Program-made: the position numbers and the translations under genes
In this document: positions 3,690 to 17,492 of the stretch, in pieces
Layout: the number at the start of each line of letters is the position of its first letter
How positions within the stretch are numbered: the first letter of the stretch is position 1
The notes under the pieces: generated by a model
Database searches by the model: none
The model's input: only the letters and a program-made list of their open reading frames with translations
Told to the model about the DNA's origin: nothing
DNA from: a virus
IMG/VR virus record: IMGVR_UViG_3300010391_000161
Span: 1 to 36,622 of that record
DNA length: 36,622 nucleotides
Reading direction: 5' to 3' (one strand)

Positions 3690-6185
3690 CTAGAAAGGCT
3701 CTTCCGCCGCGTTGATCGCCGGCACTTCGGGCATGTCCTCTGTACTTTTATCGTTCGCGTCATCGTCGTCTTGCCCCGGTACGCGAGGCGCCTCTTCGCC
3801 GTCCCACAGCGTGCGCATCATCCTCTCGCGATCGCCGATGCCGTGCGCGTCACTCCACGCGAATAAGGTGTCGACGATGATGTCGCGATAGCGGCGGCGC
3901 TCGCCCTTCCAGCGAAGGCAGGGACGTTCCGGTTTGGCGATGGCTCGCAGGGCGGCGCCGATCTTGGCCGTCTCGGGCTCGACCCGAGTCCGCTCGCCGA
4001 AGTAGAGCGCCCATCCGTCGATGATGGCCTGCTCGTTGACGAAGAGCTTGCCCTTGCCGACGCGCACGAGGCCGTCGGCTCTTTGAGCGTAGGGCTTGGG
4101 GTTCATCAGGAATCGTACGAGCCACTCGCAAGCGCGCGAGGTCCAGTCGCTCGAGATCGTCATCAGGCGATGCATCTGCGTCACGTCGCCCTCGACCCAG
4201 AAGCGGCGCCCTCGCGTCACCACGCGGTTTTTCTGGAGCCAGAGCGCGTGCCTGGCGATGCCTTCGCGCTTCCAGCGCTCTTTGGTCTCGCCGGGGACGC
4301 CGGCCATGTGGTCGGCGGAGGCTTCCGGGGCGCGCAGGTAGAGGAAGCGCTGGGCGATGGCCTCAAGATCTTGGCCCGAGAGCGCCTCCTTGCTCGAGAG
4401 CAGGTAGTCGTTGTTGGCGGCGATGACGAGCCGGATAGCGCCGCGCATCGCGGCGGGCGGAAGGTACTTGCGGGTCACGGTGCGCTCGAGCGTCGAGATC
4501 ATGGATCGGATCTGACCCGTGACGTCTTGCTTGCGCCAGCGCGCCTGACCGAAGTCCTCATCGGCGAGCACGAGGGGGCAGCGCAGGAGCTCCTCGTTGA
4601 ACGCCCCCGACATCGCGTCGTCGAACTTTGCCGGCGCGTCGGCCCAGAGCTGCGCGATGCCCATGGCAAAAATGGTTTTGCCTGCTGCCGGTCCGCCAGA
4701 GAGATAGAGCGCGCAGAGGAGCTTACCAAGGTCGGGGGCGCAGGCCATCCAGTCGCAAAGCTTTTCGTATGAGGGGCCGGCGAAGACGCGCAGCCATGCG
4801 TCGATCTCCGCGTCGAAGGAAGGCGCAAGATCCTCGCGCACGGGGCAAGCGGCCTCGTAAAGCACGCGGCGCTTCTCGTCGAAGATCGACGCGTGTCGCG
4901 TCAGGTCCACGACTACCTTCGCGGCGGCCGTGCCGAAGTCCTCAGCGAGCTCCTGCATCCCGCGTCGGCGGGTACCTCGCGGCCCTGGCTCGTTCAGAAG
5001 CACGGGGGAGCGCGCCAGGAGCTCGACGGCGGCCGTGCGCCCGAGCGAGGCGCCGTAGGGGCCGCGATAGCCGCCGTCGGGCGCCAGGACGTAGTAGACC
5101 TGATCGCCTGCGTGGACGATCCAGCGCTTGGCGAGCGCCTGTGCGGAGGCGCCTGGGTCGTGCGGCACCTCCGCTGCGGTGGCGATGCGGTCGAGGTCGG
5201 CATCGGTGTACTTGTCTCCACCGCGGAGCTGGGCGCTGTAGGCTTGCTCGACGCGCTCGACGCGGCGCTCTTCGGCCCACTCTCGGCGCTTCTCGAGCGC
5301 CCCTCGATAAGCCGTGGAGATCTCGGCCGCGGTAGGGGCGTCGCCGTCCCGAAGCGCGAAGGCGGCGCACGAGGACGCGAAGACCTCCTCGATAGCCTCG
5401 TCGGTGAAGGGGGCGTCCTCGCTCTTCTCGGCCATCCAGAGCGTCAGATCGAGGATGGCGGCATGCCGCTCGCCCTTCTCGGCGAAGGGCTGTCCGAGCG
5501 TCACCGCGCGGGTGGCGGCCTTGAGATGCTCTCCGGGGCGTCCTTGGTCGAGCAGTCGGAACAGCTCGCGAGCGCTCTCGACGATCGGCCGCTTGTCCTT
5601 CGGGGCGCCGTGCTGCGTCACGAGCGCATCCGCGTCGATCCAGGCGCCTTCGTTGCGAAACGCCCAGGCGACGGAGAGGTCGTAGGTCGTCGGCAGGTAG
5701 AAAACACGCGCGGGGTTCTTCGTGGCCGGGTCGTTTTTCCCGCCTACGAGGTTCTGCAAGGCGCCCCAGACGATCTTGTGTCGAGCGCGCGGGTAAGGTG
5801 CGTGCAGCGGGAGGATCACGCGCACTTTGATCTTGCCGGCCGCTACTGCGGATCCGTGCTTGTGGGTCGTGTACATCGCCCACTCGTAGGGCGAAAGCGT
5901 CGCGGCGACAGCTTCTAGACCAGGGTCGTCGAGGTCGTCGAGGTCGAGCCCCAGTGCGTGCATGGCCACGACATTGTCGTTCTTGTGGCCTTCGCCGGCG
6001 GGGATCTCACCGAGCACGATGCAAGGGCCGTCCTTGGCTTTGTTCAGCGCCGCCTCGTCGGTCCCGTCGGATCCCTTGACGACGTGCGACGCGAAGAACT
6101 CGAGCCATCTCGCCCAGGACGCCGTTTCCGGGACGCCGGCCTTGTCCCAAAGCGACTTATAGTGCGTGAAGATGAGGGGCCTCAC
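3690..6185 (-). CDS. bifunctional primase-helicase
   Basis: 831 aa, the main replication protein. It probably makes primers and unwinds phage DNA. The N-terminal part looks like an archaeo-eukaryotic-type primase/polymerase: an acidic pair Asp81-Leu-Asp83 in GLDLDDLDD, then KIKVRVILPLHAP and ARVFYLP strands. The C-terminal part is a superfamily-3-like/DUF5906-like helicase with Walker A GGPAAGKT at 497-504 and Walker B LVLADED at 538-544, followed by a conserved sensor-type strand (IRLVIAANND). The extreme C-terminus is acidic (QDDDDANDKS). GTG 6185 overlaps the TGA of the upstream small gene. The helicase call is firm; the primase call rests on weaker motifs. Confidence 0.85.
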   Translation of the reverse strand: MRPLIFTHYKSLWDKAGVPETASWARWLEFFASHVVKGSDGTDEAALNKAKDGPCIVLGEIPAGEGHKNDNVVAMHALGLDLDDLDDPGLEAVAATLSPYEWAMYTTHKHGSAVAAGKIKVRVILPLHAPYPRARHKIVWGALQNLVGGKNDPATKNPARVFYLPTTYDLSVAWAFRNEGAWIDADALVTQHGAPKDKRPIVESARELFRLLDQGRPGEHLKAATRAVTLGQPFAEKGERHAAILDLTLWMAEKSEDAPFTDEAIEEVFASSCAAFALRDGDAPTAAEISTAYRGALEKRREWAEERRVERVEQAYSAQLRGGDKYTDADLDRIATAAEVPHDPGASAQALAKRWIVHAGDQVYYVLAPDGGYRGPYGASLGRTAAVELLARSPVLLNEPGPRGTRRRGMQELAEDFGTAAAKVVVDLTRHASIFDEKRRVLYEAACPVREDLAPSFDAEIDAWLRVFAGPSYEKLCDWMACAPDLGKLLCALYLSGGPAAGKTIFAMGIAQLWADAPAKFDDAMSGAFNEELLRCPLVLADEDFGQARWRKQDVTGQIRSMISTLERTVTRKYLPPAAMRGAIRLVIAANNDYLLSSKEALSGQDLEAIAQRFLYLRAPEASADHMAGVPGETKERWKREGIARHALWLQKNRVVTRGRRFWVEGDVTQMHRLMTISSDWTSRACEWLVRFLMNPKPYAQRADGLVRVGKGKLFVNEQAIIDGWALYFGERTRVEPETAKIGAALRAIAKPERPCLRWKGERRRYRDIIVDTLFAWSDAHGIGDRERMMRTLWDGEEAPRVPGQDDDDANDKSTEDMPEVPAINAAEEPF

Positions 6186-13361: not shown

Positions 13362-15785
13362 ATGGCCAAGGCCGCGTTCACCAAGTCGTTGCAGCTAGAC
13401 CTCGGGGTCCAGGGCTCGACGGGCCTCAAGCAGTACGGCGGTTGGATCTTCGAGGAGTTTCTGCCGCGGCTCCAGGGGCGCACGGGCGTCCTGACCTACC
13501 GCGAGATGATCGACAACAGCTCGACCATCGGCGCGATCCGCTACACGATCCGCAGCCTCATTCTCCAAGCCGAGTGGCGCGTCGAGCCGGCTGGCGACAC
13601 GCCGGAAGCGCGCGAATGGGCTGAGTTCGTTGAGGGCTGCCTCGACGACATGAGCCATACCTTCGAGGATTTTCTGAGCGAGCTCCTCTCGCACCTCGAC
13701 TATGGCTGGGCCTATCACGAGCTCGTCTACAAGATCCGTCGTGGGCCCGAGGCGACGAACCCCAGCTACCGCTCGAAGCACGACGACGGGAAGGTCGGCT
13801 GGCGCAAGATCCCCATTCGCTCGCAGGACACGCTCGACCGCTGGGAGTTCGAGCCCAGCGACAACGGCGTTCGCGGCATGTGGCAGTTCGATCCCTACTC
13901 GCCGAAGGGCAGCCAGCTCTTCATCCCCATTGAGAAGGCGTTGCTCTTCCGCACCTCGGGGAACAAGGGCAATCCAGAGGGCCGCGCTTTGACGCTGGAT
14001 ACGTCGGTGCCGACGCCCGATGGCTGGACCACGATGGGCGCGATCGAGGTGGGCGATAAGGTCTATGACGAGCGTGGACGGATTCGGTACGTCACCGCGA
14101 AGACAGAAGTGTTCCGCGATAGGCCCGTTTACGAGATCGAGTTCAAGGATGGTTCCGCGGTGCGAGCGGACACGAACCACCTATGGAGCGTGACGGACTA
14201 CAACGATCGAACCCTCGGCCGCGAGCCGCGAACGATCAGCACCGAAGAGTTGTTCGCCAAGAGCCAGAAGTCGACTGACCTGATCTTCTCGTGCGGCCGG
14301 GCGCCGGTGTTGGATGCTCCGAATCAGCCGCTGCCCGTCGATCCCTACCTGCTGGGTTATTGGCTCGGCGATGGCGCGATCGGGACGGCGACGTTCTCCG
14401 TATGCGACGAAGATCTGCCAAGTCTGCTGGAGCAGATCAGCGCGGCGGGCCACGAGCCTGGCGCGAGGAACGGCAACAACATCAGTGTGCCAGGTGTGTT
14501 CCGCGAGGCGCTGAAAGTCGCGGGCGTCTACCGCAACAAGCACATCCCGGCGACTTATCTGCGGGCGTCGTCTGAGCAAAGGCTCGCGCTGTTGCAAGGG
14601 CTGATGGATTCGGACGGGTTCACGCCGGCGAAGGATGCCAAGGATGTCGCAAGCGTGTTCCACAACACGGATCTGAATTTGATCCACGGGGTCGCCGAAC
14701 TCGTGCGGACGCTCGGGGGACGGCCGAAGGTCAAACTCCGCCAGCGGGCTGGCCGGCTCGGCGGCGAGCTATTCGGAAGACAGATCGTCGGCAGGCGCGA
14801 CCTGTGGGAGGTCCGGTTTTCGCTTGATCTCCCGACCCATCGACTCCCGCGGAAGCGCGAGCGGCAGAAGCTCGTCTCCGAATGCGATCGGGAGGTCGCG
14901 CTCAGCCATCACGTCATTCGCAACATTCGCCGGGTCGAGAACGCGGACACGGTATGCATCGAGGTCGACGCACCTTCACACCTGTTCCTCGCGGGCGATA
15001 GCATGGTGCCGACGCACAACTCTATCTACCGCAACGCCGTGCTCGATTATTTCAAGTTCAAGCGGATCACCGACATCGAGGCGGTCGGCATCGAGCGCGA
15101 CATGACGGGCTTGCTCCACATGCAGGTGCCGATCGAGATCCTCCAGGCGGCGCCGGGCTCGATCGAGATGACCATACGCAGCGAGCTCGAGCGTATGCTC
15201 GGCTCGCTCAAGCGCGACGAGCGCGAGTTCGCCATGACGCCGCCCGAGCTCAACGAGGAGGGCATGCCGACGGGCTTCAAGCTCGGGCTGCTCGCCACCG
15301 GCGGCCGGCGCCAGATCGATACCAACGACATCGCGCTGCGCTACATGAACAGCATGACCATGTCGACGCTTGCCGACTTCCTCATGCTCGGCAAGAACGA
15401 TGTCGGAAGCTGGGCGCTGGCGTCCAGCAAGACGCGCCTCTTTTCGTTTGCGCTTGGCGCCATCATGGACGCCGTTGCGGCCGTGTTCAATCGCTTCGCC
15501 ATCCCGCGACTGATGGCGCTTAACAGCGTGCCGGTCGACCTTCACCCGCACCTCGTGCACGGCGACATCGAGTCACCGCCGCTCGACGAGATCGGCAACT
15601 ACATCACCTCGCTCGCCACCGCTGGGCTGCTCACGCCGACCAAGCCGCTCGAGCGCAAGCTGCTCGAGTTCGGCAGGCTGCCGGCGCCGCCCGTCGACGA
15701 AGAGGACAAGCCACTGCCAGGCGAAGGCGCTCGGATCGCGCCCGAGCAACTGCTGCTCCCGCTCGCGCAGCCTGGGGTCGGGTAG
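13362..15785 (+). CDS. portal protein (Mu gp29/DUF935-like) with intein
   Basis: 807 aa before splicing, 462 after. It forms the dodecameric ring through which DNA enters the head. The N-terminal extein (LTYREMIDNSSTIGAIRY, LDYGWAYHELVY, RSQDTLDRWEFE) and the C-terminal extein (ITDIEAVGIERDMTGLLHM, LADFLMLGKN) fit the DUF935/Mu gp29 portal family. The intein covers residues 209-553, between NPEGR and SIYRNA, a conserved portal segment. Start ATG 13362 follows GGGAGG. The gene lies between TerL and the MuF-like protein, as is usual. Confidence 0.9.
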   Translation: MAKAAFTKSLQLDLGVQGSTGLKQYGGWIFEEFLPRLQGRTGVLTYREMIDNSSTIGAIRYTIRSLILQAEWRVEPAGDTPEAREWAEFVEGCLDDMSHTFEDFLSELLSHLDYGWAYHELVYKIRRGPEATNPSYRSKHDDGKVGWRKIPIRSQDTLDRWEFEPSDNGVRGMWQFDPYSPKGSQLFIPIEKALLFRTSGNKGNPEGRALTLDTSVPTPDGWTTMGAIEVGDKVYDERGRIRYVTAKTEVFRDRPVYEIEFKDGSAVRADTNHLWSVTDYNDRTLGREPRTISTEELFAKSQKSTDLIFSCGRAPVLDAPNQPLPVDPYLLGYWLGDGAIGTATFSVCDEDLPSLLEQISAAGHEPGARNGNNISVPGVFREALKVAGVYRNKHIPATYLRASSEQRLALLQGLMDSDGFTPAKDAKDVASVFHNTDLNLIHGVAELVRTLGGRPKVKLRQRAGRLGGELFGRQIVGRRDLWEVRFSLDLPTHRLPRKRERQKLVSECDREVALSHHVIRNIRRVENADTVCIEVDAPSHLFLAGDSMVPTHNSIYRNAVLDYFKFKRITDIEAVGIERDMTGLLHMQVPIEILQAAPGSIEMTIRSELERMLGSLKRDEREFAMTPPELNEEGMPTGFKLGLLATGGRRQIDTNDIALRYMNSMTMSTLADFLMLGKNDVGSWALASSKTRLFSFALGAIMDAVAAVFNRFAIPRLMALNSVPVDLHPHLVHGDIESPPLDEIGNYITSLATAGLLTPTKPLERKLLEFGRLPAPPVDEEDKPLPGEGARIAPEQLLLPLAQPGVG
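13986..15020 (+). mobile_element. portal intein, class 3 with in-frame LAGLIDADG endonuclease
   Basis: 345 aa starting at an alanine (ALTLDTSVPTPDGW) and ending VPTHN before Ser+1. The lack of a residue-1 nucleophile plus Trp275 after the block-B His273, Cys532 in VCIEVD and Thr551 in PTHN gives the Trp-Cys-Thr set that defines class 3 inteins. Two LAGLIDADG helices are in frame: LLGYWLGDG (330-338) and LLQGLMDSDGF (410-420), so this is a complete, conventional homing intein. Third codon positions are noticeably less GC-rich than in the portal itself, consistent with separate origin. Confidence 0.92.
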
Positions 15786-17492
15786 ATGCCTCTCGTGCTC
15801 GTCAGCAAGGCGAAGCGCGCCCCAGCTCCTCACGCGCTGGCCGCCGAGTATGAACCGGCGACGCGCAACGTGCGCCAGTTCGCCCGCGCCGCAGCCTCGG
15901 CGTTGCGCGCTGCTTCGGCGCAAGCAGGCTCGGACGAGCTTCTTCGTCTGGTCGCAGCGCAGGCTCCGATCGACCAGATCCTCGCTGCGATGAAGCTCGA
16001 TTCAGGCTCCGAGCTGCTTGTGCCGGCGTACGAGCGCGTGCTTCAGACCACCATCGAGATCGAGAAGAAGCGCAAGCGCAGCGTGCCGACCGTGCGGGTC
16101 AACCCGCGCTCGATCGAGTGGGCGCGCGAGCGCGGAGCCAAGCTCGTGCAAGGCGTCAGCGCCCAGACGCGCACCGCGATCCGCAACGTCGTGGCTCGCC
16201 AAGTGGCGCGGGGCGAGCGAGCCGAGTCCATGGTGCGCGGCATCATGCGGGTCGTCGGTCTCTTGCCGCGCGACGAGGCTGCGGTGGCGACCCGGCGCAT
16301 TCTTCTGCTCGAGCGCGGCGAGGACATCGAGCGCGCCGAGCGCCTGTCCGACAAGTACGCCGACGAGCTGCTCGAGGCTCGCGCGATGCGCATCGCGCGC
16401 ACCGAGACCGTCGCGGCCCAGAACCGCGGGCTGCTCGACACCTGGCAGGACGCCTTCGAGTCCGGGGCGCTGCCCGATACGGTCGTGCGCGTGTGGGTAT
16501 CGGCACCTCCGAGCGAGAACCCGGGGCGCCCGTGCCCCATCTGTCTCGAGCTTGATGGCACCGAGGCGCCAATGGGCCAGTCCTTCGAGTCGGCACTGCT
16601 CGACGAAAGCGTCCTGACCCCACCGGCGCATCCAAACTGCTTACCTGGGGATGCGGCAGTAGCAGCCGAGAGCATCGCGGCCGCGAGCGTACGGCGATAT
16701 GATGGAGATCTCGTCGTTATCCGCACGGCCGCAGGTCACCGTCTCGCCTGCACCCCGAACCATCCGATACTCGGGACTGGCGGCTGGCTTCCTGCGCGCT
16801 CGTTCCACATAGGAGACCACGTAGTCGGCGCTCGCCTCGGTGAGCGGATGCCTTCGCTCATCGACCCAGATCATGAGCACCGACCAGCCGCGATCGAGCA
16901 GGTAGCGCGTGCGCTCGAGGAGTCGCGCGTGGCGACGGCCCTGCCAGTGCCAATTTCCTCCGAGGACTTCCATGGCGACGGGAAAGGCTCCGAGGTCGCA
17001 GTTGTATGGGCCGATGGCTTGTTGAGGCAAGACCTCGAGTCCGCGATCAGCCAACATGCGAGCCAGCTTGATCTCGCTTCGAGAAGCGCCGAGCAGCCTC
17101 GACTGCCGCGTGATCGCCGCCTGCTCGAGCACTCGGCGCGAGACGCGCATCCCGCGCCGAGCTTCATGGGCACTCTTTGTGAGCGCCACGCGCTGCTCTG
17201 GACTCAGGCGCAGCATGCGAAGGCGATTCGCCTCGCTCAGACCGCGTGGCTTGACGCCGGCGGCAAGAAGTCGAGTGCGCACCCCGCCCCGAGCGATGTG
17301 GAAGGATTCGCTCAGCGACTTCTCCGACGCACCAGCCAGATACAGGCGCACAAGATCATCGACGTCCACGTCCAATCGTTTAGCAACCACGTGTTCAACC
17401 TCGAGACGGCGGTCGGCGCCTACATAGCACAGGGCCTCGTGACCCACAACTGCCGCTGCACGATGACGCTGCGAAGAGAGAGCGCGTCATGA
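15786..17492 (+). CDS. MuF/SPP1 gp7-like head morphogenesis protein with intein
   Basis: 568 aa before splicing, 297 after. It is a minor head protein that binds the portal and helps assembly and DNA ejection. The extein has the family's signature: ARAMRIARTETVAAQN helix, then CPICLELDG and, at the end, the HPNCRC motif. The intein (residues 285-555) splits this motif exactly between Asn and Cys (HPN / CRC), so splicing restores the metal-binding-type signature. Start ATG directly follows the portal TAG. A Vsr-like endonuclease ORF lies on the opposite strand within the intein. In a 37-codon extein sample about 92% of third positions are G/C, against about 62-72% in the intein. Confidence 0.9.
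   Translation: MPLVLVSKAKRAPAPHALAAEYEPATRNVRQFARAAASALRAASAQAGSDELLRLVAAQAPIDQILAAMKLDSGSELLVPAYERVLQTTIEIEKKRKRSVPTVRVNPRSIEWARERGAKLVQGVSAQTRTAIRNVVARQVARGERAESMVRGIMRVVGLLPRDEAAVATRRILLLERGEDIERAERLSDKYADELLEARAMRIARTETVAAQNRGLLDTWQDAFESGALPDTVVRVWVSAPPSENPGRPCPICLELDGTEAPMGQSFESALLDESVLTPPAHPNCLPGDAAVAAESIAAASVRRYDGDLVVIRTAAGHRLACTPNHPILGTGGWLPARSFHIGDHVVGARLGERMPSLIDPDHEHRPAAIEQVARALEESRVATALPVPISSEDFHGDGKGSEVAVVWADGLLRQDLESAISQHASQLDLASRSAEQPRLPRDRRLLEHSARDAHPAPSFMGTLCERHALLWTQAQHAKAIRLAQTAWLDAGGKKSSAHPAPSDVEGFAQRLLRRTSQIQAHKIIDVHVQSFSNHVFNLETAVGAYIAQGLVTHNCRCTMTLRRESAS
16638..17450 (+). mobile_element. MuF intein/Hint element (271 aa)
   Basis: A Cys1 intein: the first residues are CLPGDAAVAAESIAAASV, block B is HRLACTPNHPIL (Thr-Pro-Asn-His), and the C-terminal block is VFNLETAVGAYIAQGLVTHN before Cys+1. 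No LAGLIDADG or HNH is in the sense frame. The middle (ISSEDFHGDGKGSEVAVVW) is protein-like and stop-free but not a nuclease I recognise. The opposite strand carries a homing-endonuclease-like ORF over the same bases with codons exactly facing codons. Sense and antisense third positions over 160 codons (16860-17339) are about 72% and 74% G/C, so composition does not decide which strand is under stronger selection. Confidence 0.88.
16641..17390 (-). CDS. Vsr-like (EDxHD) homing endonuclease, antisense inside the MuF intein
   Basis: 249 aa from a GTG with GAGGT eight bases upstream; the open frame reaches back to a GTG at 17447. N-terminal residues 9-50 (DVDDLVRLYLAGASEKSL onward) look like a helix-turn-helix, followed by a basic linker (SEANRLRMLRLSPEQRVAL). 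Residues 100-175 resemble the Vsr-fold nuclease family: Glu106 in SRSEIKLARML, Asp132 in IGPYNCDLG, Glu141 in PVAMEVLGGNWHW and His148. Its TAA lies on the second codon of the intein, so the gene is wholly inside the element. Antisense ORFs arise easily here by chance, so the case rests on the ordered motifs and not on length. Confidence 0.72.
   Translation of the reverse strand: MVAKRLDVDVDDLVRLYLAGASEKSLSESFHIARGGVRTRLLAAGVKPRGLSEANRLRMLRLSPEQRVALTKSAHEARRGMRVSRRVLEQAAITRQSRLLGASRSEIKLARMLADRGLEVLPQQAIGPYNCDLGAFPVAMEVLGGNWHWQGRRHARLLERTRYLLDRGWSVLMIWVDERRHPLTEASADYVVSYVERARRKPAASPEYRMVRGAGETVTCGRADNDEISIISPYARGRDALGCYCRIPR

Follow-up and report, generated by a model that had tools for sequence, protein, structure and literature searches.

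The window, meaning the whole stretch of DNA analysed here, comprises 36,622 bases with a GC content of 66% and is a virus record in IMG/VR. Within it, a plus-strand gene for a MuF-like minor head protein is interrupted by an intein, and the opposite strand of that intein holds a long open-reading frame for a putative homing endonuclease. The features of the locus are the following:

15786..17492, plus strand: MuF-like minor head protein ORF, intein-interrupted, 568 aa (Pfam PF04233, Phage_Mu_F, E 2.9e-7; PF14890, Intein_splicing, E 5.7e-7)
16638..17450, plus strand: intein, 271 aa, Cys1 to Asn271 (alignment A4; Foldseek intein matches)
16638..16850, plus strand: N-terminal splicing half (N-Hint), with sense conservation exceeding that imposed by the antisense residues and pLDDT ~90 over residues 1-65
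16752-16763, plus strand: block B, Thr-Pro-Asn-His, within N-Hint
17349..17450, plus strand: C-terminal splicing half (C-Hint), from motif alignment A4 and the sense structure model
17388-17405, plus strand: block F, His-Val-Phe-Asn-Leu-Glu, within C-Hint
16641..17390, minus strand: antisense putative homing-endonuclease gene, 249 aa, with an N-terminal HTH and a Vsr-fold core (profile, fold and Pfam)
17390-17388 and 16643-16641, minus strand: GTG start and TAA stop of the nuclease gene, read from the sequence
17398..17402, minus strand: Shine-Dalgarno GAGGT, the reverse complement of the block F Asn-Leu codons, its position kept in most clusters
17073..17075, minus strand: nuclease Glu106, invariant in family alignment A3
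16995..16997, minus strand: nuclease Asp132, invariant in alignments A1 and A3
16968..16970, minus strand: nuclease Glu141, invariant in A1 and A3, facing sense Phe111 (sense Phe or Leu)
16965..16979, both strands: dual-coded motif, sense Asp-Phe-His-Gly-Asp and antisense Val-Ala-Met-Glu-Val, conserved on both strands
16851..17348, both strands: nuclease zone, with a wobble flip in relatives, no sense stops and low sense pLDDT

The intein interrupts the MuF motif HPN^CRC, with junctions at Cys1 (16638, HPN^CLPGD) and Asn271 (17450, THN^CRC), and its motif set (Cys1, Thr39-xx-His42, His270-Asn271 and a +1 Cys) is present. In alignment A4, Thr39, His42 and Asn271 were invariant, as was Cys1, found in every row. 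AlphaFold, run with alignment rows taken from IMG/VR loci, predicted the N- and C-Hint halves of the sense protein well, with pLDDT below 50 at residues 124-193 and 205-219, and Foldseek matched the model to the GyrA, RadA and RecA inteins with probability 1.00. A profile search with the sense intein also returned inteins. The MuF gene contains a continuous intein with a Hint fold by prediction; a split intein was considered and rejected, as the sense frame is continuous in 58/58 loci of the set described below. The adjoining portal gene (13362-15785, plus strand) has an apparent intein of its own with a sense-oriented LAGLIDADG endonuclease (PF14528, E 1.7e-5), the first residue of which intein is apparently Ala, not Cys, so the neighboring head genes portal and MuF would carry two inteins of different design.

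At its full extent the antisense ORF covers 16641-17447, its TAA facing intein Leu2 (TTA) and its GTG facing the penultimate intein codon, and the two frames stand in exact codon-facing-codon register. A sequence-only reading of the window had given these limits for the intein and the ORF, the exact alignment of sense and antisense codons, the positions of Glu106, Asp132, Glu141 and His148 counted from GTG 17390, and a GAGGT preceding that GTG. All of these were verified, and the choice of GTG 17390 as start holds, with its position conserved in relatives.

The same reading had described the product as a Vsr-like EDxHD nuclease with an HTH. When the single antisense protein was used as a query against the PDB no match was found, and a family profile was required: a profile of 22 relatives matched the homing endonuclease I-Bth0305I (PDB 3r3p) with E 4.3e-6. 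The AlphaFold model of the antisense protein (mean pLDDT 83, with the HTH and nuclease core mostly >90) likewise had 3r3p as its top Foldseek match (E 9.6e-4, probability 1.00), I-Bth0305I being the best PDB nuclease match by profile and by fold alike. In Pfam, the window nuclease matched PF18741 (MTES_1575) at E 3.6e-5 with 24.2 bits, below the 38.2-bit gathering cut-off, while 12/28 nuclease relatives matched this family at E <0.01 (best 2.6e-11); DUF559 was also matched, and the HTH domains matched resolvase- and sigma-like HTH families. PHROGs held no family for the window's copy. The Vsr-type fold was thus borne out by 3r3p, MTES_1575 and DUF559. Strict EDxHD membership is less certain: Glu106 and Asp132 are invariant in A3, but His148, present in the window, is not conserved across the family. 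At the end of the antisense ORF, a stretch of ~22 residues opposite intein block A has predicted disorder, and its sequence is probably imposed by the sense strand.

A tblastn search with the antisense protein found 128 phage records, with hosts including Gordonia, Mycobacterium, Salmonella, Pseudomonas, Klebsiella, Escherichia and Vibrio, and further Acinetobacter, Haemophilus, Aggregatibacter, Pantoea, Edwardsiella and Rhodococcus; with the sense intein as query, a similar set of 124 records was obtained. In all annotated cases examined except Acinetobacter P1068, the nuclease lay antisense within the minor-head/MuF gene or a matching unnamed gene. Relatives in the sequence collections were gathered by scans with single proteins. 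With the IMG/VR relatives added to the GenBank ones, there were 58 nuclease-plus-intein loci, ranging from 38 to 69% GC; clustering by nuclease identity gave 38 groups at 90% and 32 at 70%. A genome-contig collection returned no relative. These 58 loci support the proposal that one 813-bp element carries a splicing domain and a nuclease gene on opposite strands. For Salmonella phage PK1 (L018, 2306-3115, plus strand) one annotation enters, besides the head gene, two hypothetical proteins that overlap each other (XRA40086.1, XRA40087.1) in place of the antisense nuclease, and in Escherichia phage fEg-Eco06 the sense gene is annotated as a 'minor head protein with inserted intein' with the antisense gene absent from the annotation. 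Two plasmid records, from Candidatus Promineifilum breve and Streptomyces platensis (L027, L028), contain the element together with phage head genes and are probably plasmid-prophages. Acinetobacter P1068 (L025, 2294-3187, plus strand) and an IMG/VR relative (L064) have a free-standing nuclease gene in convergent orientation to a MuF gene that lacks the intein, which is possibly the ancestral or a sister state.

An open antisense frame alone proves little in a GC-rich window, because other long antisense ORFs exist. Nine of ten others tested in the window had no Pfam match; the tenth (3690-6185, minus strand) matched DUF5906 at E 1.4e-7 and is a genuine minus-strand gene. The significance of the present ORF comes instead from its homologues, namely from the absence of in-register sense stops where about 70 were expected and from the wobble flip. 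The sense frame facing the nuclease match had 0 stops in 58/58 loci, compared to 2-46 in each other register. A sense stop arises wherever the nuclease codon is TTA, CTA or TCA, and from the codon usage of neighboring genes 69.7 such stops were expected in 14 phages and 0 were seen (summed log10 P -36), an expectation for which neighbor codon counts were small in some loci and kinship was uncorrected. The free-standing P1068 nuclease served as a control and has 9 sense-stop codons vs 9.4 expected.

In the codon-facing register, sense position 1 is the antisense wobble position, and differences between related phages were expressed as a ratio of sense position 1 to position 3. For Gordonia groups A and B, Guernseyvirinae and the Edwardsiella/Klebsiella pair, the extein ratios were 0.21-0.75, and those of the nuclease zone rose to 1.67, 2.08, 2.04 and 1.37, respectively, with counts taken over all pairs within each group, which are not independent. 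The splicing halves, which are short, gave intermediate ratios of 0.18-1.18, and the Pseudomonas/IMG pair, a saturated comparison, gave 1.01 with no clear flip. GC3 in the nuclease zone was 72% sense and 74% antisense, matching an earlier hand count, but the whole N-extein had 85% rather than the 92% of that count. The wobble comparisons indicate that selection sees the antisense protein in the middle of the element and the sense protein in the exteins; the nuclease zone is thus under selection mainly on the minus strand, with the sense strand serving mostly as an open, disordered linker.

Two alternatives bear on these data. The antisense ORF could be a chance shadow of the intein linker, as antisense frames are often open in GC-rich DNA; the 66% GC of the window and its other long antisense ORFs with no family match fit such a shadow, but the layout persists at 38-45% GC, variation within the nuclease zone is greatest at the antisense wobble positions, the catalytic residues are invariant, and the nuclease family and fold match a homing endonuclease. 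Together, the sense-stop deficit, the wobble flip and the I-Bth0305I profile match led us to reject this explanation, whose probability we consider negligible. No homologue turned up in which the antisense frame is broken while the sense frame stays intact, the pattern that the sequence-only reading had named as the mark of a shadow ORF. The sole damaged copy (L062), from a record marked UNVERIFIED, was rejected as shadow evidence because its frameshift hits both frames. Conversely, the antisense gene could be the sole functional product, with a dead or non-splicing intein and a fortuitously open sense frame. The predicted disorder of the sense middle is compatible with a dead intein, but Cys1, Thr39, His42 and Asn271 are invariant, the Hint halves are under sense constraint, sense stops are avoided throughout, and the head gene MuF needs to have its C-terminal motif restored, all of which make this reading very improbable.

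The reading preferred here, in which both strands are functional, is also reflected in the placement of the nuclease start. In 29/38 clusters, an ATG or GTG with a Shine-Dalgarno directly faces the block F His, block F taking the form H-V-Y/F-N/D/T-L or H-W-V-Y-N-L; the Asn/Asp-Leu codons, read as their reverse complement, supply this GAGGTT- or GAGATC-like Shine-Dalgarno ~8 nt upstream. In the remaining 9/38 clusters, mostly divergent ones, the start lies away from this His. The block F His codon is CAT, which yields ATG on the other strand, in 9/11 GC-rich loci vs 22% CAT in their exteins (P 4e-5, kinship uncorrected). The nuclease stop usually falls inside the intein near its N-terminus, opposite Leu2 or an N-Hint Ser/Leu.

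A second point of contact between the strands is the dual-coded motif, for which the family form is nuclease Val-Ala-Val-Glu141-Val opposite sense Asp-Phe-His-Gly-Asp. Across loci of 38-69% GC, its Ala codon is GCC in 35/38 clusters and its middle codon GTG or ATG in 31/38, so that at the DNA level the 15-bp VAVEV/DFHGD segment hardly varies among phages spanning that same range. The free-standing relative uses other codons at the motif, and its reverse does not yield DFHGD. Once nuclease residues and codon usage were taken into account, sense conservation opposite nuclease residues 61-95 was no more than expected, whereas the sense strand was strongly conserved opposite residues 137-142 and 201-249, the latter being the N-Hint, as expected. 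The sense strand is more than stop-free, because the DFHGD motif is conserved in its own right.

Mobility was addressed by joining the flanks of the insert and searching for uninterrupted genes. With a Guernseyvirinae query, the joined flanks matched uninterrupted MuF genes over >=80% in one place in 406 records, and with a Gordonia query the same test gave 102 records; among the matches listed, the full-length ones were single pieces. Because the joined flanks match uninterrupted genes, the element is an optional insertion at an exact site. Where MuF genes are 98-100% identical near the site, the splicing halves can be only 26-33% and the nucleases 28-32% identical, indicating that the splicing domain and nuclease come and go together, since near-identical MuF genes carry divergent versions of both. 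In Gordonia phages, L005, L012 and L013 compared to L006, L010 and L011 have exteins that are 84-100% identical and element versions that are only ~30% identical at the same site. The element is present in Gordonia phage Vivi2, in which an ATG of the nuclease faces block F, and absent from its relatives Geodirt and Brandonk123. Besides HPN^C or IN^C, a further MuF insertion site, TSTT^C, was found in L029; the Escherichia phages BEU35 and fEg-Eco06 (L029, L060) have the element at TSTT^C and related Salmonella phages at HPN^C. A promoter and terminator scan found no sigma-70-like minus-strand promoter.

The exchange of the element also bears on whether a former homing endonuclease now has mainly another role, such as regulation of MuF through HTH binding or antisense RNA. 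The match of its HTH domains to resolvase- and sigma-like families would suit a regulator, as would an antisense message overlapping the MuF message. This role appears unlikely, however, given the invariant catalytic Glu/Asp/Glu, the joint replacement of splicing domain and nuclease between near-identical MuF genes, and the presence/absence polymorphism at an exact site.

The element is very probably an intein with an antisense Vsr-fold homing endonuclease, in which the sense product would splice and the antisense nuclease would mobilize the whole element. Building on the two frames and their predicted folds, the selection on both, the start and stop positions, the intein-free alleles and the joint replacement documented above in the sequences, we infer splicing, antisense expression, cleavage and homing in the following order. 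MuF would be made with the intein, which would splice out at HPN^CRC to leave an intact MuF. The same DNA would be transcribed in reverse to give an antisense message, and translation from the start and ribosome-binding site formed by the reverse complement of block F would produce the HTH and Vsr-fold nuclease. During co-infection, the nuclease would cut an intein-free MuF gene at the insertion site, and repair would copy the entire 813-bp element into the cut allele. The central sense codons would act mainly as an open, disordered linker, with the one dual-coded motif excepted. As for its history, a P1068-like nuclease gene would likely have been inserted in reverse in the linker of a mini-intein, after which selection would have kept the sense frame open.

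Each part of this arrangement is known, and as far as checked the arrangement itself is new. Dassa et al. reportedly described in 2009 fractured-gene loci, in which a free-standing gene for a Vsr-like endonuclease separates the two parts of a split intein. Such loci likewise tie a Vsr-like endonuclease to an intein, mainly in phages, but there the intein is split, whereas the present intein is continuous in sense with the nuclease overlapping it antisense in codon register. Conventional LAGLIDADG inteins also place an endonuclease between the splicing halves and move at the DNA level; in these, however, the polypeptide that undergoes splicing includes the endonuclease, whereas the present nuclease is encoded separately and antisense. 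I-Bth0305I (structure PDB 3r3p) and the EDxHD (Vsr-like) phage homing endonucleases have been reviewed (PMC3943268). Like the present nuclease, I-Bth0305I is phage-borne and multi-domain, with the same catalytic fold and Glu/Asp residues and added DNA-binding domains, but it is encoded in a group I intron rather than antisense in an intein, and the EDxHD His is not conserved in the present family. Antisense homing-endonuclease genes occur in nuclear group I introns, e.g., I-DsqI (PMC9548176), where the gene is also opposite the strand of its host element. That host is a self-splicing RNA, whereas the present host is a translated intein with Hint motifs, and in the group I case no base codes for two proteins because the intron is untranslated. 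The sequence-only reading knew of no description of the arrangement, and in the open-access literature antisense endonuclease genes were found only in group I introns and no antisense nuclease was found in an intein; this literature did not cover all key papers, and an earlier description is conceivable. In a survey of mycobacteriophage inteins (PMC5050341) the words antisense, opposite and overlap are absent.

We conclude with good confidence that the antisense-nested intein represents a widespread and undescribed class of mobile element, with a splicing domain and a homing endonuclease on opposite strands in exact codon register, a nuclease start formed by block F in reverse complement, and a DFHGD/VAVEV motif, including a catalytic Glu, constrained on both strands. 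Fully nested antisense gene pairs in which both proteins are recognizable and both frames are under measurable selection are rare. This layout is found in dozens of phage lineages, well-studied phages of Salmonella and Gordonia among them, and it points to a group of homing endonucleases that for the most part lack annotation. An intein can, by this arrangement, carry an endonuclease that is kept out of the spliced polypeptide. Mutations that leave the intein protein unaltered can inactivate the nuclease, and vice versa, so the constraints of splicing and homing are separable, and the dual-coded motif offers a natural test case for protein evolution on both strands of one sequence.
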